DNA of 64,000 bases from Alphaproteobacteria bacterium (GTDB lineage Bacteria; Pseudomonadota; Alphaproteobacteria; DSM-16000; Inquilinaceae), in contig JANQSN010000017.1 of assembly GCA_028284045.1 (NCBI GenBank), positions 1 to 64,000 on the forward strand, written 5' to 3'. Below, in pieces: positions 1,431 through 18,892 of this stretch. A program made the position numbers and the translations under genes. The notes beneath the pieces were generated by a model that saw only the letters and a program-made list of their open reading frames with translations, did not search any database and was not told the DNA's origin. Numbering within the stretch: position 1 is the first letter of the stretch; each line of letters opens with the position of its first letter.

Positions 1431-1639
1431 GATCGGGCCGCGCCCTCTCGACGGAATTAGTCCCGATACTGAACGAGACCGCGAAAATCCGGCGGCGATG
1501 TGGCAGAGATCGGGTTCGCTGCAGTCGCCGCGTCCGTCATCGCGTGGACAAGACGGTTGATCGCGGGGCCGAGACCGGCCCAATCATGGCAGCCCGTGCC
1601 GGTCGCGGCCGCCATCCTCCTCACCAAACCGCCCCGCCC

Positions 1640-2584
1640 ATGCGTCCGATCCTTGCCGTCACGCCCAACCCGTCGGTCGACCGCACATTGCTGGCGCCGG
1701 GCTTTGCCGCGCACCGGGTGTGGCGGGCGCACCGGGTCCTCGTGGCGACCGGCGGCAAGGGCGTCAACGTCGCCCGGGCGCTGATCGGCTGCGGCCGGCC
1801 GGCGGTCGTGCACGGGATACTGGGGGGCGCGACCGGCCGTCACGCGGCGGCACTGGCGATTCGCGATGGGCTGCCGGCGCGCTGGACCTGGGTCGCCGGC
1901 GAAACCCGCACCTGCACCATCGTCGCCGGGGACGACGGTGCGGAGACGACCGTGGTCAACGAGGAAGGCCCGGCGGTGACGCCCGCGGAATGGGAGCCCT
2001 TCGCCCGGGCGGCCATCGACGGCGTCGCTTCGGGCGACCTGGTTGCGCTGAGCGGCAGCATCCCGCGGGAGGTGCCGTCCGCGGAGGTGGCGGCGCTGGC
2101 GGCCGGGCTTGTGGCCGCGGGCGCCCGTCTGTTCGTCGACATGACGGGGGCGGCGCTGACCGCCGCCGCCACGGCCCGACCCGCCGCCATCAAGATCAAC
2201 GCGGAGGAGGCGTCCGGCTTCCTCGGCCGCCCCGTCAACGCAGCCGATGCGCCGGCGGCCGCCCGCGCGCTCGGCGAGCGCAGCGGCGCAACCCTGGCCG
2301 CCATCACGCTGGGCGCTGCGGGCGCGGTTCTGGCCGTGCCGGACGGGGTCTGGCGCGCCGCCATCGCACCGGTGCGCGCCGTCTCCACGGTGGGATCGGG
2401 GGATGCCTTCCTCGCCGGGCTGCTGATGGGCGTGGCCGACGGACTCGATCCCGCCGCCGCGCTGGCCCGCGCGGTCGCTGCCGGCACCGCCAACGCGCTC
2501 GCCTTCGGCGGTGGCGAGGTAACCCCTGAGACGCTCGCCCGGCTGGCAGGCCAGGTCGAGGTCGCCGCAGAGCCGGCGGCCTGA
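1640..2584 (+). CDS. PfkB-family sugar kinase (1-phosphofructokinase / tagatose-6-phosphate kinase type)
   Basis: Encodes 314 residues of the ribokinase fold. The N-terminus 'ILAVTPNPSVDRT' is typical of the FruK/LacC branch, which phosphorylates fructose-1-phosphate or tagatose-6-phosphate. The PfkB signatures are present: 'GGKGVNVARAL' from residue 38, and the C-terminal anion hole 'GSGDAF' with catalytic base D255. The frame is open back to 1544, but the ATG at 1640 fits the family start. No fructose PTS genes are adjacent, so the source of the phosphorylated sugar is unclear. It is divergent from the fructosamine-kinase gene and convergent with yacG (19 bp between stops). Confidence 0.85.
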   Translation: MRPILAVTPNPSVDRTLLAPGFAAHRVWRAHRVLVATGGKGVNVARALIGCGRPAVVHGILGGATGRHAAALAIRDGLPARWTWVAGETRTCTIVAGDDGAETTVVNEEGPAVTPAEWEPFARAAIDGVASGDLVALSGSIPREVPSAEVAALAAGLVAAGARLFVDMTGAALTAAATARPAAIKINAEEASGFLGRPVNAADAPAAARALGERSGATLAAITLGAAGAVLAVPDGVWRAAIAPVRAVSTVGSGDAFLAGLLMGVADGLDPAAALARAVAAGTANALAFGGGEVTPETLARLAGQVEVAAEPAA

Positions 2585-2603
2585 CGCGCGGCTTGCGACG
2601 CCG

Positions 2604-2819
2604 TCAGGACGCGCCGCCGGGCCCCTCGTCGCGATCGTGGCCGGCGGCCGGATCGCCGTCGCCGTCATAGGCCACCTGGCCGGCGATGCGGTAGTTGCCG
2701 CCGATCCAGCGGGCGAGATCGAGATCGGCGCAGCGGCGCGAACAAAACGGCCGAAACGCCTGCTGGCGTGGCTTGCCGCAGAGCGGGCAGCGTCCCCTCA
2801 CCGGCCGGTCGTCGCTCAT
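2604..2819 (-). CDS. yacG: DNA gyrase inhibitor / zinc-binding protein YacG
   Basis: Encodes 71 residues with the YacG zinc knuckle: C11 and C14 (CPLC) paired with C26 and C30 (CSRRC), followed by the family hallmark 'ADLDLARWI'. YacG binds zinc and, in Escherichia coli, blocks DNA binding by gyrase. The C-terminal third is acidic and probably disordered. Its start overlaps the stop of the upstream RNase E/G-like gene, so the block reads glgA-like, maf, RNase, yacG in one direction. The maf, rng, yacG neighbourhood is widely conserved in Alphaproteobacteria. Confidence 0.93.
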   Translation of the reverse strand: MSDDRPVRGRCPLCGKPRQQAFRPFCSRRCADLDLARWIGGNYRIAGQVAYDGDGDPAAGHDRDEGPGGAS

Positions 2820-3949
2820 CCCCCGTCCTCCACCCTCCGCACGGCCGCCCCGTCGACCACCTCGTCGAGGCGGGGGCCCCGCCGGCGACGCGTCAAGTCG
2901 AGCAGGCCCAGAGGCGAGATCGCGCCGACGCGCACCGTCTCCGGGTCGTCGGCCAGCGCCTCCGCCAACCGGGCCAGCACCCGGCGCCGGTCGGCGGCCC
3001 GGGTCAACTTCAACAGGTCCACCGCCACCAGCCCGCCGATATTGCGCAGCCGCAGCGCGCGGGCAAGGGCGGAAACGGCGGCGAGGTTGACCCGAAGCGG
3101 ATCGGCCAGGGCAGCTGCATCCACGTCCACCGCCATGAAGCCGCGGGTGGCCTCGAACGACAGACGCCCGTCCTCGCCGAATTCCTGCTCAGCCGCCAGC
3201 AGATCAAGTAGCTCAGCGGCGAGATCGGTGCGGCCGACGCTGAGCGCCGGCACCGCATCGTCCATCGACGCCCGCAACCACGCCGCCGAAACGGTGTCCT
3301 CCGCCCGAACGGCGCCGATCGTCGGATGATCCGCCAGCAGGCGCGCCACCGGCGACGGCGCGGGCACGCCAACCGTTCCTGGCGGTGGGTCCGCCAGCGT
3401 CTCCGCATCGCGCCAGCGCGCCGCCAGCGCCGCCGCTTCGGCCAGGATCGCATCCGGATCGGCATCGGCCGCCGCCCGGCGCAGCACCCAGCCGCCATCC
3501 CCGAGGCGGTCTGCCAGCACCGCCGACAACGGCTCCGCCACGGCCGGGTCGAGCCGGGCGGACGCCGTCAGCCCGCGACCACGCGGCCGGTGGACCAGCC
3601 AGCGCCCGGCCAGCGCGGGGTCCGCCGTGGCCTCCGCTGCCTTGCCGTCGCGCGGATCGGCGGTGATCTCCACCCAGACGGCCGCCCCCGGCACCAAGTC
3701 CGCCGACGCCGCGACCGGCGCCGGGCGGCCGTCGCCGAGATCGGCGAGCACCAGGGCACCACCGCCGGTCCGGCGGCTGCGGCGCAGCACCCGCGCCGCG
3801 ACGATCGCCCCGACCCGCGACGGCCGGTCGATCCGGTCGGCCAAGCACCGCTCCAGCCGCCCCGCGACACGCAGCCCCGCGATCACCGCGCTGCCCTGCA
3901 CCAGCACCTCCAGCGAGGCGCGCGCGCCAGCGCGGCTGGTCGCGGTCAC
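2816..3949 (-). CDS. Ribonuclease E/G-like protein, short form
   Basis: Encodes 377 residues from a GTG start that overlaps the maf stop. The C-terminal half holds the RNase E/G catalytic-domain landmarks in divergent form: 'FMAVDVD' in place of the usual TAIDVN, 'RNIGGLVAVDL' in place of RDLGGIIVIDF, and 'ISPLGLLDLTRRR' in place of ISxFGLVEMTRQR. The Asp residues expected to hold the catalytic metal are kept. The protein is shorter than RNase G (about 490 residues), and the zinc-link CPxC motif is not visible. RNase E/G enzymes cleave 5'-monophosphorylated single-stranded RNA in rRNA maturation and mRNA decay. Whether this compact version is active is uncertain, but the maf/yacG setting supports orthology with the alphaproteobacterial rng-like gene. 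Confidence 0.82.
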   Translation of the reverse strand: MTATSRAGARASLEVLVQGSAVIAGLRVAGRLERCLADRIDRPSRVGAIVAARVLRRSRRTGGGALVLADLGDGRPAPVAASADLVPGAAVWVEITADPRDGKAAEATADPALAGRWLVHRPRGRGLTASARLDPAVAEPLSAVLADRLGDGGWVLRRAAADADPDAILAEAAALAARWRDAETLADPPPGTVGVPAPSPVARLLADHPTIGAVRAEDTVSAAWLRASMDDAVPALSVGRTDLAAELLDLLAAEQEFGEDGRLSFEATRGFMAVDVDAAALADPLRVNLAAVSALARALRLRNIGGLVAVDLLKLTRAADRRRVLARLAEALADDPETVRVGAISPLGLLDLTRRRRGPRLDEVVDGAAVRRVEDGG

Positions 3950-11444: not shown

Positions 11445-11519
<75 letters not shown>

Positions 11520-11533
11520 GATTTTTTGGCGTT

Positions 11534-13081
11534 TCAGAGGGCGATCGACTGGGCGGACGCGGTGGCGCCGATCCAAGCGGCGAAGCCCTCGAACAGGTGC
11601 AGGTAGGCGCCGCCGATCTCAGGGTGGAACTCCAGAAGAACGCTGCCGCCCCAGAAGATCAGCAAGAGCGGCAGGATCGTCGACCAGCCCGCGATCAGCG
11701 TCAGACCGAACGCCGCCAGCCATTTGTGCCGCGTCAGGTCGCCGGCCATCACGCCCAGCACCCACCGCTTCGCTGATGACGGCACCAGTTCGACGAAGCT
11801 GAACGTCGCCAGCACCAGATGCAGCAGCGTCGGCAGCAGGGTCGAGAAGATCATGGCATAGAGCCAGACATAGTCGCCCCGCTGCGTGGGATCGCGAAGG
11901 TCGTCAAACAGGCTCTGCAGATCCAGCAGGGGCGTGCTGCCGAGCGCGTTCATCACCTGGATGACCGCGATCAGCGCGCAGCCCAGCGCCGTGAACAGCA
12001 CCCCGGCCGCCCCGAGGTCCGCCAGGCCGAGCGGCAACGCCAGCCGGCCATGAGTGGCCCCGGCGCGGACCAGCCAGCGGGTCAGCCCGATCGACAGGAA
12101 GTCGAACACGCCGTTCATCACTGGCAGAACGCCCAAGAAGATCAGGAGCGTGGCCGTGAATTCGGACGCCCGGTCCGCAAACGCTGACACACCGACCAGC
12201 AGCGCAAGAGCCGCCGCGACGAACACCCCGTAGGCGGCGGCGCCAACCCCGCGGCGCACGGCCGACGCCAGGGCAGCAACGCTCGCGACTGCGAATGCGA
12301 CTGCGAATGCGACTGCGAATGCGAATGCGACTGCGACTGCGAATGCGCCTGCGACTGCGAATGCGAATGCGACTGCGAATGCGCCTGCGCTTGCGACTGC
12401 GAATGCGAATGCGAATGCGCCTGCGCCTGCGCCTGCGAATGCGAATGCGCCTGCGCTTACGACTGCGACTGCGTTTGCGACTGCGACTGCCAGTCCGAAG
12501 GCAAGCACCAAGGCGGCAAGCCGCAACGCTGATCGTGCACCGCCGGGCAGAGCCTTGGACAGGCTCGCCACGAAGAGCACAGTTGCGCAGATCGCCGCGG
12601 GACGCACCCACCACGGCACGGTTTCCGGCAGCACGACGACATCGCCGATCCGGCCTTCCGCTCCCGCCAGCCACGCGAGCAAGAGTAACAAGATGGGGTA
12701 CAGGACCGCGAGGCGCAGGGTCAGGTCGAACAGCGGCCATCCCCAGGCGTTGCGCCCTGCCCACTCCGCCGCCGACTTGGTCGGCGCCCGCAGGTCGGTC
12801 AACCAGTCCAGTCGCCGCCACCAACGGCCGCCGGGATCCGGGTGCTCCTCCACAGACTCCGGCGTCAGACGTCTGTCGACCGACTCCAGCCACCGTTTGA
12901 CGATGCGCGTATAGAGCGCCCCGCCCTTCGCGTGGCGAAGCCAGCCCTCGATCTCCGCGCGGTCCCCGTCATTGCCCAACGCGTCGAGGAAGTAGTAACC
13001 CCAGACGACAAGGATCACGCCGGACGGGGCAAGGAACCACCAGTCCGAGACCAGATCCAGCAACGTGAAGATCACCGGCAT
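11534..13081 (-). CDS. Large membrane protein with Ala-(Val/Phe/Gly) dipeptide repeat segment
   Basis: Encodes 515 residues from the ATG at 13081 (MPVIFTLLDL). It has an N-terminal membrane segment, a soluble region (about 45-120) with Trp-rich 'GGRWWRRLDWL', and then about eight hydrophobic helices. Residues 198-266 are almost pure alternating Ala-Val, Ala-Phe and Ala-Gly pairs, produced by a hexanucleotide repeat on the DNA. The C-terminal third carries 'FDFLSIGLTRWLVR' and 'LIAGWSTILPLLLIFWGG'. I recognise no enzyme or transporter family. The open frame extends upstream to 13333, but those residues are Arg/Pro-rich and not membrane-like. The gene is convergent with tRNA-Thr and divergent from a Cys-rich peptide gene. 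Confidence 0.72.
   Translation of the reverse strand: MPVIFTLLDLVSDWWFLAPSGVILVVWGYYFLDALGNDGDRAEIEGWLRHAKGGALYTRIVKRWLESVDRRLTPESVEEHPDPGGRWWRRLDWLTDLRAPTKSAAEWAGRNAWGWPLFDLTLRLAVLYPILLLLLAWLAGAEGRIGDVVVLPETVPWWVRPAAICATVLFVASLSKALPGGARSALRLAALVLAFGLAVAVANAVAVVSAGAFAFAGAGAGAFAFAFAVASAGAFAVAFAFAVAGAFAVAVAFAFAVAFAVAFAVASVAALASAVRRGVGAAAYGVFVAAALALLVGVSAFADRASEFTATLLIFLGVLPVMNGVFDFLSIGLTRWLVRAGATHGRLALPLGLADLGAAGVLFTALGCALIAVIQVMNALGSTPLLDLQSLFDDLRDPTQRGDYVWLYAMIFSTLLPTLLHLVLATFSFVELVPSSAKRWVLGVMAGDLTRHKWLAAFGLTLIAGWSTILPLLLIFWGGSVLLEFHPEIGGAYLHLFEGFAAWIGATASAQSIAL
12285..12490. repeat. Imperfect hexanucleotide tandem repeat, about 34 units
   Basis: Tandem 6-bp units of the form GCGAAT, GCGACT, GCGCCT and, rarely, GCGCTT run without interruption for about 206 bp. 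On the minus strand each unit encodes one Ala plus Phe, Val or Gly, building the hydrophobic dipeptide stretch of the surrounding membrane protein. Because the unit is a multiple of three, slippage changes protein length but never the frame. It is not a CRISPR array, because there are no spacers. Confidence 0.95.
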
Positions 13082-13335
13082 CCACAACACCTCCCAAGCC
13101 GCCGACGACGCGTATGGCAAGCATGGCGAGAACGCAACTGTCCGATCGGCAACGCAGCCAACCGGTAGGGCTCGGCGCGGCCGGTGGCAACGGTCGACGC
13201 GGAGACCGCGGCGAACCATCGTCCGTCGCGGTTGGGCTCTTGCGCCGCCCGGCAGTTGCCAATGAATAGAAGGTCTGTGCGATTCTTCTGGCTCAATTAT
13301 TTTGATATTTTCAGCCAGATACCTTACTATCACGC

Positions 13336-13632
13336 ATGAGACTCTTGCTGACTACGCTTGTACTCAGCCTGATCATCGGCGGGCTGGGGCCATCGGCGGT
13401 CGCTGAGGAAGACGGCGGCGCCCTGACGCTGCCCGAGCTGGCGCAGTCTCTCGTCGACGGCATCATCGTCCCGATCGACATCCCGATGACGATCGTGCCG
13501 GCGGACGACGAAGCGGACCTCGCCCAAGCCTGCTGCCGGTACTGCTGCAGGGGCAAGCCCTGCGGCAATAGCTGCATCAACCGACAGCTCACCTGCCACC
13601 AACCGCCCGGCTGCGCCTGCGCGGGCTGTTAG
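13336..13632 (+). CDS. Small secreted Cys-rich protein
   Basis: Encodes 98 residues. A signal peptide (1-23, cleavage after AVA) is followed by an acidic linker and a dense C-terminal cysteine module: ten Cys (66, 67, 70, 71, 76, 80, 87, 93, 95, 98) in 33 residues. The core 'RGKPCGNSCI' followed by 'CHQPPGCAC' matches a recurring C-terminal signature in diverse bacterial exported proteins whose role I do not know. Metal binding or several disulfides are both plausible. The upstream 60 bp are notably AT-rich, unlike the surrounding DNA, and probably hold the promoter. It is divergent from the repeat-containing membrane protein. Confidence 0.78.
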   Translation: MRLLLTTLVLSLIIGGLGPSAVAEEDGGALTLPELAQSLVDGIIVPIDIPMTIVPADDEADLAQACCRYCCRGKPCGNSCINRQLTCHQPPGCACAGC

Positions 13633-13864: not shown

Positions 13865-14737
13865 CTACCGTTGACGCAGCAGGTCGGCGAGCAGCGGGTT
13901 GGCGAACCGCCGTTCCACCGTCACGCCGAAGAAGCTCTCCGACAGATTGGGCAGTTCCGCGATCTCGACGAGGGACCCGCTGGCGAGCTCGTCGCGCACG
14001 ACGATGGGCGGCATGACGGCCAAGCCGACCCCCTCGCGTGCCAACAGGCGCATCATCGCCATGTCGTCGACCTCCGCAGCGATCTGCGGCGTCACGTCCA
14101 GCCGGTCGAACAGCGCGTCGACGCCCATACGCAGGCCGCTCGCCCGGGTCGGCAGCACAAGCGGCGCCCCCACAAGGCGCGCGGTCAGCGACAGGCCCGG
14201 CGGACACAGGGCCGGAACGCCGATCAGGCCGACCGGCTGCTCGTCGAGGCGGTGCACGATGAACGGCGTCAGCGCATCGGACGGTGGCGGCTGGTTCGTC
14301 AGAACCAGATCGATGTGCAGCGCCCCAAGCGCGCTGAACAGCTCCGCCGCGCTGCCCGAGCGCAGGATGACCTCAACGTCCGGACGGCGAAGAATGGTCC
14401 GCAGGAAGACGAGCTGGAAATTGCGCGACAAGGTGGCGAGCGCGCCGACGCGCAGCGCGTGACGCTGTCGCCCGCTCTGCCGCAGGGTCGCCACCAGCTC
14501 GCGTCCCGTCGCGAAGATCGCATCGGCATGGTCGCGCGCGATGCGCCCGGCCTCCGTCAGGTACATCGCCCGCCCGCGCCGCTCGAACAGCGGCTGGCCG
14601 AGCGCGTGCTCCAGGTGGCGGATCTGCGTCGACACGGCCGACTGCGAGACGTTCAGCCGAACCGCCGCGCGGGTCAGGTTGCCCTCGTGCGCGACCACCT
14701 GAAAGTAGCGCAGATGATGGTAGTTCAGCTCAGCCAT
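13865..14737 (-). CDS. LysR-family transcriptional regulator, probable regulator of dabBA
   Basis: Encodes 290 residues. The N-terminal winged helix-turn-helix reads 'LNYHHLRYFQVVAHEGNLTR' followed by 'RLNVSQSAVSTQIRHLE', and the C-terminal two-lobed effector domain fills the rest. LysR regulators of carbon-fixation and carbon-concentrating genes sense metabolites and act on divergent promoters, and this gene is divergent from dabB with only 105 bp between starts. A perfect 17-bp palindrome lies just 3 bp upstream of its start. The ATG at 14737 (MAELNY) is chosen because the helix-turn-helix begins about 15 residues later; the frame runs on to 14773. Regulation of dabBA and self-repression are inferences from position. 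Confidence 0.88.
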   Translation of the reverse strand: MAELNYHHLRYFQVVAHEGNLTRAAVRLNVSQSAVSTQIRHLEHALGQPLFERRGRAMYLTEAGRIARDHADAIFATGRELVATLRQSGRQRHALRVGALATLSRNFQLVFLRTILRRPDVEVILRSGSAAELFSALGALHIDLVLTNQPPPSDALTPFIVHRLDEQPVGLIGVPALCPPGLSLTARLVGAPLVLPTRASGLRMGVDALFDRLDVTPQIAAEVDDMAMMRLLAREGVGLAVMPPIVVRDELASGSLVEIAELPNLSESFFGVTVERRFANPLLADLLRQR

Positions 14738-14740
14738 ATC

Positions 14741-14757
14741 GTTCTGTTGAACAGAAC
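14741..14757. promoter_or_regulatory. Palindromic LysR operator candidate
   Basis: The sequence gttctgtt-g-aacagaac is a perfect inverted repeat with one central base and contains the T-N11-A core typical of LysR binding sites. It sits between the LysR start (14737) and dabB (14843), where such a regulator would control both directions. Confidence 0.75.
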
Positions 14758-14842
14758 GTAATCGCGAATACAATGTATTTTTCTTCCGTTCGTGCGGCCG
14801 CTACGGATTGTGCGACTGCGAACCGAACGGAGACTCCGCCTC

Positions 14843-16408
14843 ATGTCGGTCTATCTGATGCCGCTGATCCCGCCGGCCGTGCTGTTGTTGACGGCGTTGC
14901 TGGCGCTGACCGGCCCGGGCCGCCGGCCGGCCGGGCTGGCCAGACTGACCGAAGGCGCGGCGCTGGTCGCGCTGGGCGCCGCGGTCGCCGCGGCGGTCGT
15001 TCTGGCGTCGCAGGGTGCGGGCTCCGCCCGGATGTTCGGCGCGGACGGCTTCGGTCCGGCGACCCGGCTCGATGCGGTCAGCGCCACCATGCTGGTCCTC
15101 GTCGCCTTCGTCGGCTGGGTCGTCGTCCGCTATTCGGCGTCCTACCTCGACGGTGAGGCGCGCGAAGGCGCCTTCCTCGGGTGGCTGGCGGCAACGCTGG
15201 GATCCGTCCTGCTGCTCGTCCAATCGGGCGACCTGGTGCAGCTCGTCGTCGCCTGGATCGCCACCAGCTTGTGCCTGCATCGGCTGCTGCTGTTCTACCG
15301 CGACCGCGTGCCGGCGATCCGCGCGGCCCGCAAGAAGCTTGTGGTCGCGCGGATCGGCGATGCGGCGCTGATCGGCGCGGCGGTGTTGCTGGCCGTCGGC
15401 TACGGCACGACCGACATCGCCAGCATCCTGGCAGCCGCGCGCGCCGGCACCGCACCCGCGGAGGCGGCCTGGGCGGCGGGTCTGATCGCGCTGGCGGCCC
15501 TGCTGAAATCGGCGCAGTTCCCGACCCATGGTTGGCTGACGGAGGTGATGGAGACGCCGACCCCGGTCTCCGCCCTCTTGCATGCGGGCGTGATCAATGC
15601 GGGCGGCTTCCTGTTGATCCGCTTTGCCGACGTCATGCTGCTGTCGCCGGGCGTGCTCGCGGTGCTGGTGATGGTCGGCGGCACCACGGCGCTGATCGGC
15701 GGCCTGGCGATGCTGTCCCAGTCCGGCGTCAAGAACTCGCTCGCCTGGTCGACCATCGCGCAGATGGGATTCATGATCATGCAATGCGGGCTGGCGCTGT
15801 TCCCGCTGGCCTTGCTGCACATCGTCGCGCACTCGCTCTACAAGGCCCACGCCTTCCTCAACTACGGCACCGCGGTGGACTATGTGGCGGCGATCCGCCG
15901 ACCGGGACCGATCGCGATCCCCAGCGGCGGGGCGGTCGTACGCGCCTTCGCGCTGGCGCTGTTGATCTATGCGGCGATCGCCTACGCCTTCGCCCTCGGC
16001 TTCGAGGCCAAGTCGCCGCAGGCGATCTCGCTGGGCGCCATCCTGATCTTCGGCGTCGCCTGTCTGCTGGCGCAGGGCCTGGCCGATGCCGCGCCGCGCG
16101 TGCTGACCCGGCGGACGCTGACCTATGCGGTGGCGACGTCGGTCAGCTACTTCGCCCTCCAGACGGGTGCGGAGTGGCTGGCCGGCGGCACGCTGCCGGC
16201 GACGCCAGCGCCGGGGCCGCTGGAATGGGCGTTGCTGGCGCTGGCCGTCTTCTGCTTCGGCCTGGTCGCCGTCGCGCAGGCGCTGTTCCCGCTGTGGTCC
16301 AACCACCCGGCGGCGGCCGGCCTGCGCGTCCACCTGTCCAATGGGCTCTATGCCAACGCGGTGTTCGATCGGCTGCTGGGCGGCTGGTCGGTTCGCCGCC
16401 CGTCCTGA
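14843..16408 (+). CDS. dabB: DabB, proton-channel-like membrane subunit of the inorganic-carbon pump
   Basis: Encodes 521 residues with about 13 membrane segments, homologous to NuoL/MrpA antiporter-type subunits ('proton-conducting membrane transporter'). Conserved features include 'LLKSAQFPTHGWLTEVMETP' then 'TPVSALLHAG', with the channel Lys and the Pro-kinked discontinuous helix, and the 'HIVAHSLYKAHAFL' helix. DabB with cytoplasmic DabA forms a DAB complex that accumulates inorganic carbon, thought to be driven by cation flow. Here it is followed 27 bp later by dabA and has no other Nuo or Mrp subunits nearby, which excludes complex I or Mrp. The ATG at 14843 has an upstream 'ggaga' and fits the family N-terminus; the frame is open to 14792. 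Confidence 0.92.
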   Translation: MSVYLMPLIPPAVLLLTALLALTGPGRRPAGLARLTEGAALVALGAAVAAAVVLASQGAGSARMFGADGFGPATRLDAVSATMLVLVAFVGWVVVRYSASYLDGEAREGAFLGWLAATLGSVLLLVQSGDLVQLVVAWIATSLCLHRLLLFYRDRVPAIRAARKKLVVARIGDAALIGAAVLLAVGYGTTDIASILAAARAGTAPAEAAWAAGLIALAALLKSAQFPTHGWLTEVMETPTPVSALLHAGVINAGGFLLIRFADVMLLSPGVLAVLVMVGGTTALIGGLAMLSQSGVKNSLAWSTIAQMGFMIMQCGLALFPLALLHIVAHSLYKAHAFLNYGTAVDYVAAIRRPGPIAIPSGGAVVRAFALALLIYAAIAYAFALGFEAKSPQAISLGAILIFGVACLLAQGLADAAPRVLTRRTLTYAVATSVSYFALQTGAEWLAGGTLPATPAPGPLEWALLALAVFCFGLVAVAQALFPLWSNHPAAAGLRVHLSNGLYANAVFDRLLGGWSVRRPS

Positions 16409-16435
16409 CCCGCGTCGCGAGAGGAGATCGATATC

Positions 16436-18892
16436 ATGTCGACGAAACCGGAGATCGAGCCCCTCGGCGTGTCCACCCGCGGCGGGTCCCCCCTCGACGT
16501 GACCACGATCGACCGCGCGGCGGATGCCGCGGCCCGGCAGATCCCGCCGGTCTGGCCCATCGCCTCCTACGTCGCGGTCAATCCCTTCCTCGGCCAGACG
16601 ACACAGTCGCTGGCCGAAGTGGGCGCGCGCCTGGGCCGCGTCGGCGCCATTCCGGTGTGCATGCCGCGCGCCTGGTATCGGGAGCGGATCGGCAACGGGA
16701 CGATCACGCAAGCGGACTTGGCCGCCGCACTCGAAGCGTCACCCCACGCCGGCAAGCCCGGCGACGTCGCCGCGCTGACCGCGGCGGCAGCGGAGGCGGC
16801 ACCGGCGCAGCCCACCTTGCCGACGGTGGCGGACCTCGCGGCCGCGGCGAGCGGAACGGATTGGCCGGGCCTGATCGCCGACCGCTTCGGCGCCTGGGCG
16901 GGCGGCTACTTCGATCGCGGCCAAGCACTCTGGGCGGCCCCGCGTGGCCGCAACACCTGGTCGGCCTTTCGCGCCTATGCGACACACGACCTGACGCCGG
17001 AGATCATGGGGCTCGACGGGTTCGCCGCCTTCGTGGCGGAGGCGCCGGAGAGCGCGGCGGCGGCGATCACGCGCGCTGCGAACCGGCTGGGCCTCGGCGA
17101 AGCGGCACTGGACACGTACTTCCATCAACTGCTGCTGTCGCTTGGCGGTTGGGCGCAGTTCGCGCGCTACGAGCTTTGGCGTGCCGAGCTTCTCGGCGAG
17201 GCCGACGCGACGATCACCGATCTGCTGGCGATCCGGCTGCTTTGGGAAGAGGCCCTGTTCTGCCGGCACGAAGCGGCGATCCTGGACCGCTGGCAGTCGG
17301 TACGGGCCGACCACGCGACGCCGGTCGCGCCGCAGGCGGCCGGCATCGTCGACGAGGTCTTGCAGGAGGCCGCCGAGCGCGCCGCCCAGCGCGCCTTGGG
17401 CGAGGCGCTCGCGGCCCCACCCCCCGCTTGCGAGGAGGCGCGCCCTGCGCTGCAGGCCGCCTTCTGCATCGATGTGCGCTCGGAGATCTTCCGGCGGTCG
17501 CTCGAAGCGGTCGATCCGGCGATCCGCACGCTGGGCTTCGCCGGCTTCTTCGGCGTGTTCGCCAAGCATCGCCGCTTCGCCTCCGACGTCGAGGAGCTGC
17601 GCTTGCCGGTTCTCCTCAACCCCACGGTCTCCTCCTGCTCCGGCCACGCGGACGAAGCGCCGGACGACCTGGCCACGCGGTATGCCGCCCGTGCCCGGCG
17701 GGCCTGGGGTCGCTTCAAACTGGCGGCCGTGTCGTCCTTCGCGTTCGTCGAGGCGATGGGGCCGGTCTATGTCGCAAAGCTTGTCCGCGAGGCCTTGGGT
17801 CTGAGCGCGATGGCGGCACCGAACGACCCGACGCCCCGCTTCGATCCCGACCTTGATCTCGCGACGCGGATCACGGCGGCGGAGACGGTGCTGCGCGCCA
17901 TGTCGCTGACCCGCGGCTTTGCGAGGGTCGTGGTGCTCGCCGGCCATGGCGCCAACGTGGTCAACAATCCGCATGCCAGCGGGCTGCACTGCGGCGCCTG
18001 TGGCGGCTATTCGGGCGAGGTGAACGCCAGGCTTCTGGCGCTGCTGCTGAATGACCGGCCGACGCGCGCGGGATTGGCGGCGCGCGGCATCGAGGTGCCG
18101 GCGGACACGCTCTTCGTCGGCGCGCTGCATGACACCACCACCGACACGATCACCCTCTACGACCGGGATGCGGCGGCCGCGGACCATGCGAGCGACCTCG
18201 CACAGGCGCGCCGGTGGTTCGCCGCCGCCGGCAAGGCGGCGCGCGGCGAGCGGGTGGCGCGTCTGCCCCGCGCCTCGGCGGAGGACGACATTCCCTCCCG
18301 CGCCCGCGACTGGGCGGAGGTCCGTCCGGAATGGGCGCTGGCCGGCTGCAAGGCCTTCATCGCCGCGCCGCGCGCGCGCACGCTCGGACGCAGCCTGAAG
18401 GGGCGGGCCTTCCTGCACGACTACGACTGGCACCAGGACAGCGCGCATGGGTTCGGCGTGCTCGAACTGATCATGACCGCGCCGGTCGTGGTCGCGAGCT
18501 GGATCAGTCTGCAGTACTACGGCTCGACCGTCGCGCCGCAGACCTTCGGGTCGGGCAACAAGCTGCTGCACAACGTGGTGGGCGGCATCGGCGTCTTCGA
18601 GGGCAATGGCGGCCTGATGCGGGCCGGCCTGCCTTGGCAATCGGTGCATGACGGCGAAGCCTATGCCCATGAACCGCTCAGACTGTCGGTCTGCATCGAA
18701 GCGCCGCGCGAGGCGATGAACGACATCCTGGCGCGTCACGACGGCGTGCGTGCACTGTTCGACCACCGCTGGCTGCATCTCTTCGCGATGGACGACGACG
18801 GACGGCTCGCCCACCGCTATACAGGCGATCTGAACTGGGAAGCGGTAGCCATGCCGGCCGCCGCGCCGCACGCGCTGGACGCCGTCGCCTGA
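16436..18892 (+). CDS. dabA: DabA, zinc carbonic-anhydrase-like subunit of the inorganic-carbon pump (DUF2309)
   Basis: Encodes 818 residues of the DUF2309/UPF0753 family. The predicted zinc site is intact: C344 and D346 in 'FCIDVRSE', H504 in '[11 protein letters not shown]' and C519 in '[11 protein letters not shown]', with the 15-residue H-to-C spacing known from the characterised Halothiobacillus DabA (ligands C351, D353, H524, C539). Conserved 'YVAVNPF' near the N-terminus and '[10 protein letters not shown]' near the C-terminus also fit. DabA is thought to hydrate CO2 vectorially while bound to the membrane through DabB. The start ATG at 16436 is preceded by 'gagagga'. The dabB-dabA order and LysR neighbour are standard for DAB operons. 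Confidence 0.94.

Follow-up and report, generated by a model that had tools for sequence, protein, structure and literature searches.

A coding hexanucleotide array in an alphaproteobacterial membrane protein of no named family, read as a candidate sequence-permissive stack of membrane helices

An in-frame hexanucleotide array inside a gene for a predicted membrane protein probably codes a sequence-permissive stack of membrane helices that lies between two conserved halves of the protein and is remodelled slowly, and does not act as an on/off or cell-to-cell switch; we give this reading a probability of about 0.55. The gene lies in a 64,000-nucleotide stretch of alphaproteobacterial DNA, the whole of which was analysed (the window). 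The array would turn over chiefly as blocks of several units are duplicated or deleted (through unequal exchange or long slippage), and such block events would be far more frequent than point mutation, with the result that codon third positions stay frozen. Selection on the protein would keep the residues between the alanines uncharged and mixed among Val, Phe and Gly and would disfavour pure runs, and the slot may tolerate large changes in length because it need only span the membrane. The features concerned are as follows:

11445-11519, plus strand: tRNA-Thr(ggt), convergent with the gene and 14 bases from its stop codon.
11534-13081, minus strand: gene for a 515-residue protein of no named family, predicted to be a multi-pass membrane protein (stop codon within the coordinates).
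11537-12229, minus strand: conserved C-terminal helical domain (P320, N323, D327, S330, T334, D355, P417 and H421).
12285-12490, minus strand: hexanucleotide array of 34.3 units, residues 198-266, with the unit GCA-TTC/GTC/GGC(/AGC), that is, Ala-Phe/Val/Gly(/Ser).
12491-13081, minus strand: N-terminal half, residues 1-197, with predicted helices and conserved Y57, Y128-P129 and W137.

Tandem Repeats Finder reports the array at 12285-12490 with a period of 6 and 34.3 copies (83% matches, score 230), a count that is taken from a 63-contig draft assembly and could be off in its exact number. Together with the translation, this bears out the original prediction of about 34 six-base units that code roughly 69 residues of Ala alternating with Val, Phe or Gly; the array also codes a few Ser (AGC) and one Asn near its N-terminal end, both of which were missing from the predicted list of residues. 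At a period of 36 the same array scores 284, above its score at period 6, and no other tandem array in the whole window scores above 57. Nucleotide identity at a lag of six bases is 0.83 in the array, as compared with 0.30-0.34 in the remainder of the gene and in two neighbouring open reading frames (ORFs). Identical units occur in runs of three at most, that is, long pure hexamer tracts are absent from the window array, and the longest exact direct repeat within it is 29 bp. The array is in frame and hydrophobic, as had been proposed: it lies in a minus-strand ORF at 11534-13333 (the upstream limit is a GTG at 13333; the Met at 13081 was taken as the start of the 515-residue reading by comparison with relatives), and residues 204-275 (72 residues) form the longest stretch free of Asp, Glu, Lys, Arg, His, Asn and Gln. 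The reading frame is backed by relatives that align with the protein both before and after the array, and we ruled out an artefact of assembly or of reading frame on the grounds that a mixed array recurs in this slot across many genomes that are unrelated; that of the G499 member (L067) lies on a 4.37-Mb contig. The plus strand of the array holds a 201-residue ORF of Arg-Leu and Arg-Met repeats (12295-12900), with no sign of being a gene.

The protein matches no family in Pfam, NCBIfam, PADLOC or PHROGs, which agrees with the earlier judgement that it belongs to no recognised family. Its AlphaFold2 model is almost wholly helical (mean pLDDT 80.1, pTM 0.78); residues 199-245, much of the array, have a pLDDT below 50, and the model therefore does not fix how many times the array crosses the membrane. 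Foldseek found no match in the PDB at an E value up to 0.001, either for the whole model or for the C-terminal domain, and the best Z scores from VIA, 5.3 (rmsd 7.6, 159 aligned) and 8.6 (rmsd 3.0, 76 aligned), are within the stated noise for helical models. A sequence search of the PDB with alignment A3 gave a single GPCR match (E 0.0026), which we treated as a hydrophobic chance match. The protein is an array-bearing membrane protein of no named family, predicted to be multi-pass.

Relatives were sought with the conserved C-terminal domain as the query. A scan of genome contigs yielded three (L014-L016, titled Rhodobacteraceae, Paracoccaceae and Rhodobacter), and a search of 61 genomes returned the gene itself, a pair of adjacent copies in G003 and a weak match inside an enzyme-like ORF of G050, which was excluded. 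Profiles of the C-terminal half had matches in 11 of the 385 genomes searched for the class (five with E below 1e-20), in 2 of 17 for the order and in 36 of 394 for the family to which G399, the source of L016, belongs. Occurrence is patchy down to the level of the genus (one of six genomes in the genus of G781); G003, G303, G398 and G416 have two copies each, and G544 has two partial matches. The main set consists of 38 alphaproteobacterial relatives and the window protein, 39 members in all (40 sequences were opened, among which L084 has no ORF), and alignment A4, which omits L049, L079 and L080, has 36 rows. Among the weak matches of the class search, L049-L052 were opened and L053, L054 and L057 left out; two short partial matches from the G399 family search (G463 and G678) lie outside the set, and six further stretches were read and kept out of the counts. 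The relatives are distant, with 20-40% identity to the window protein in the C-terminal half (alignment A5), about 20-43% in the flanks and at most 43% over the tree columns (L064); among the genomes searched we found neither a second strain of this species nor a relative that exceeds 43% identity in the conserved half. On the tree of the 39 members, 16 of 36 branches are open and many deep branches are weak.

Wherever an array is present, it is flanked by the two conserved halves (alignments A2 and A4). Most of the 38 relatives carry an alternating-Ala array in this slot, of another length and sometimes of other residues, and some carry none. The slot, measured in alignment columns from W137 to N323, ranges from 124 to 251 residues over 36 members, and its longest charge-free run from 15 to 129 residues over all 39. 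Repeat length thus differs greatly among relatives, contrary to the identical repeat number across divergent strains that had been named as the sign of a static array. The longest alternating-Ala arrays have 61 (L010), 54 (L075), 48 (L078), 40 (L064), 39 (L074) and, for the window array as delimited in this comparison, 36 units. Other alphabets are found in L077 (Ala-Leu/Pro/Ala) and in L065 and L082 (Ala-rich with Thr), and the arrays of L014, L016 and L019 are visibly decayed. In L013, L056 and L083 the slot holds ordinary mixed sequence with no period-6 signal (lag-6 identity of 0.31, 0.28 and 0.26, respectively, versus 0.31, 0.27 and 0.27 at other multiples of three). Two of these array-free proteins have array-bearing paralogs as their sisters on the tree: L013 is the adjacent paralog of L010 (support 100/100), and L056 is a paralog of L019 in the same genome (support 100/99). 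With array labels set by hand (the short or decayed arrays of L069, L072, L080 and L049 being labelled 'none'), the array-absent label requires 10 changes over the 39-member tree, as compared with a shuffled mean of 9.8, and the presence or absence of the array is therefore not clustered by descent.

Two sets of loci deserve mention in their own right. At L097 (G003:C97), array-bearing and array-free genes stand in tandem with nearly identical last residues, which looks like exchange between copies. L063, L065 and L083 (loci L095, L096 and L108) have an array, another alphabet and no array, respectively, at what seems to be the same chromosomal place; they share a radical SAM gene, a class-III aminotransferase and a carbamoyltransferase in their surroundings, as if one locus carried very unlike alleles.

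A possible but doubtful extension of the main reading makes the slot a recurring source of transmembrane helices, in which arrays are born repeatedly, are shaped by block turnover and selection, and decay into ordinary helices with loops. If this were true, a single protein family would show every stage from fresh repeat to normal helix bundle; the array, decayed-array and array-free paralogs of one protein make the origin of new membrane helices directly testable.

The main reading, that of a slowly remodelled and sequence-permissive helix stack, draws first on the pattern of variation within units. In the set of 39 members, 19 arrays have 16 units or more and together comprise 603 units; in these the share of the modal base at unit positions 1 to 6 is 0.97, 0.93, 0.97, 0.68, 0.70 and 0.95: positions 3 and 6, which are codon third positions, are 97% and 95% modal, and positions 4 and 5, which set Val, Phe or Gly, vary. 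Six arrays have no third-position deviants at all (L064, 0/80; L067, 0/56; L070, 0/34; L075, 0/108; L079, 0/38; L085, 0/64); the window array is less clean than these six, with 9 of 72 third positions deviating as the array was delimited there, several of them at its decayed edges. GCA makes up 30 of the 34 codons in the Ala phase of the window array and only 15 of the 356 Ala codons in five neighbouring ORFs, indicating that codon preference is not the cause of this uniformity. The same Val/Phe/Gly alphabet appears with three synonymous forms (labelled by hand), GCA-KKC in 18 members, GCT-KKC in 4 and GCC-KKT in 6; the GCC-KKT type is one supported clade (99/97), and the GCT type is not a single clade. 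Synonymous sites within an array are more alike than codon use predicts, and different lineages have been homogenized to different synonymous forms, both of which are marks of intragenic concerted evolution.

Variation at the remaining positions bears on the encoded protein. Across 17 arrays (the above 19 minus L065, L077 and L082, which have other alphabets, plus L014; chosen by hand) we counted 120 codons departing from the unit in 539 units, and these include one Asn and no Asp, Glu, Lys or Arg; uniform single changes would be expected to give about 13 Asp, Glu or Arg among 120, a comparison to which no p value is attached because the units are not independent. This lack of charged departures fits a membrane segment. 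As a control, we searched for exact in-phase runs of seven GCNKKC units, a pattern that misses GCC-KKT arrays, and found them in 4 of the 385 genomes searched for the class and in 10 of the 394 searched for the G399 family. Inside the protein family all nine control arrays mix Val, Phe and Gly, whereas all six outside it (mostly short, with 8-22 units, and some out of frame of the longest ORF) are of one type; mixing is therefore not a general feature of such hexamer arrays. A pure GCTGTC array of 21 units, out of phase with the longest ORF, was also read outside the family (L118; G620:C68:15538).

We compared these features with simulated arrays, using hand-picked settings and 10 replicates each. 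In the first simulation turnover was too mild to reach the observed synonymous uniformity. In the second, with stronger turnover, composition was kept (each unit type at 10% or more), runs longer than three were barred and about 10,000 block events occurred per mutation; it gave 0.017 synonymous deviants, an entropy of 1.48 bits and a lag-1 excess of -0.12, all near the values of the cleaner arrays, and this agreement is a fit after the fact, by choice of settings, and no proof. Neutral turnover, in contrast, loses the Val/Phe/Gly mixture, with an entropy of 0.03 bits at low synonymous deviance and a similar loss in the first, milder simulation. This result counts against neutral tolerance, in which a hydrophobic slot would accept slippage-born expansions that later decay, and the mixture of residues would be of no value. 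Arrays do come and go, as the 10 changes on the tree, the array-free paralogs L013 and L056 and the decayed arrays of L014, L016 and L019 attest, but the uniform purity of the arrays outside the family and the recurrence of one alphabet under three synonymous forms are at odds with a mixture of no value, and we consider this account unlikely.

The order of units within arrays bears on how they turn over. Over 16 arrays (the 19 minus L065, L082 and L089), neighbouring units are less alike than in shuffled arrays (Stouffer Z of -4.17), an effect driven most by L067, L075 and L077 and reduced to a Z of about -2 without these three; for the window array alone, lag-1 likeness is no different from shuffled (z 0.3). 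Single-unit slippage predicts like neighbours, and the overall result is thus the opposite of what it predicts. In the unit-order test, which used 10 arrays (chosen by hand, as were the 16), repeated multi-unit blocks were found in L077 (66 bp), L078 (54 bp) and L067 (48 bp), with a weak case in L010, and the order was indistinguishable from random in the window array (p values of 0.63 and 0.73) and in L015, L064, L074, L075 and L085. Neither block duplication nor run avoidance is directly seen in the window array itself.

These observations weigh on the proposal, made in the original prediction, that slippage by six bases alters the hydrophobic span between cells, and hence topology or activity, as at a contingency locus. 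We regard it as distinctly improbable: neighbouring units over the 16 arrays are less alike than shuffled, the window array has none of the long pure tracts that slip most easily, and a change of two residues in a hydrophobic run of 69 should hardly alter its spanning. The 34 in-frame units, the 29-bp direct repeat and the strong differences in array length between relatives would all suit such a locus, and the hexamer repeat of MutL is a published precedent (PMC2955026); yet the same paper uses loss of unit identity as its means of locking such a repeat. It is very improbable that third positions are held by a constraint on the DNA or RNA itself. In the modal units one codon has A or T as its last base and its partner has C, so that two G or C endings never coincide and strong self-pairing is avoided; however, the effect of any one third-position change on the whole would be very small, the arrays show three distinct synonymous solutions, and turnover is a simpler account of the uniformity, as argued in a paper on a spider silk gene (PMC3933166). 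A targeted process that diversifies only the first two bases of the second codon, which variation at unit positions 4 and 5 beside frozen positions 3 and 6 and the random-looking unit order of several arrays could be taken to suggest, is scarcely credible, because the observed changes are limited to membrane-suited amino acids and simulated hypermutation at these positions without selection failed to hold the mixture.

Two of the members that were read combine the module with sensing or signalling domains. In L066 (L093 neighbourhood, 1483-3315) the membrane module is fused to a TIR domain at the N-terminal end (TIR_2, E 2.2e-18; PADLOC TIR models), and L141:841-2655 has an N-terminal helix-turn-helix (HTH_3, E 2e-6) ahead of the membrane part and no evident array. 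The window protein itself has no TIR domain, which was found in 1 of the 36 members scanned. The two copies in some genomes and the patchy occurrence would be compatible with an accessory or defence role; a defence island was considered for L066 and rejected, its neighbours being metabolic and signalling genes. No gene neighbour is conserved across 24 loci, among which only two groups of three share ordinary housekeeping genes. A mobile or viral origin of the gene was also rejected, there being no match in viral contigs (A1), plasmids or phages, as was site-specific integration at the tRNA-Thr, the 3' end of which has a single occurrence in the window. At 3 of the 24 loci scanned a tRNA gene is the immediate neighbour of the member (tRNA-Thr in the window, tRNA-Trp at L015, 4687-4762, and tRNA-Met at L103, 6640-6715), which hints at insertion hot spots. 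Elsewhere in the window, a divergent 98-residue ORF (13336-13632) has a signal-like start and a cysteine-rich end and matches nothing in Pfam or NCBIfam, and the stretch 13865-18892 holds a LysR regulator divergent to two ORFs that may resemble a NuoL-like protein and its partner, a bicarbonate-uptake pair.

What gives this family its interest is that a simple repeat has been gained, lost and rewritten many times over in one membrane slot, a natural experiment in which the turnover of repeats can be told apart from selection on the protein. Intragenic tandem repeats are common; a literature search in which subscription journals were mostly outside coverage found no title on such an array in this protein family. 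With the TIR-domain immune proteins (Pfam TIR_2, PADLOC TIR effectors) the family shares the fusion of L066, whereas a TIR domain is absent from the window protein and from the 34 further members scanned. Tetranucleotide contingency repeats break the reading frame. Contingency loci such as those of Haemophilus, where tetranucleotides are reported to switch surface structures (PMC2651432), are simple repeats inside genes, as is the window array, which keeps the frame and is without long pure tracts. In MutL of Salmonella, a 6-bp repeat (GCTGGC, coding Leu-Ala) in three copies switches the enzyme on and off (PMC2955026); both are in-frame hexamers in a bacterial protein in which gain or loss of a unit keeps the frame, and they differ in that the window array has 34 copies, its units are mixed, and its segment is long and hydrophobic. 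A likeness in pattern is offered by the AcSp1 spidroin of Argiope, in which synonymous sites are homogenized within the array beyond codon bias, a pattern explained there by intragenic concerted evolution (PMC3933166). The arrays of the window family share this synonymous homogenization, in 6-bp units of a bacterial membrane protein with variable replacement sites, as opposed to the roughly 600-bp units of a secreted eukaryotic silk.
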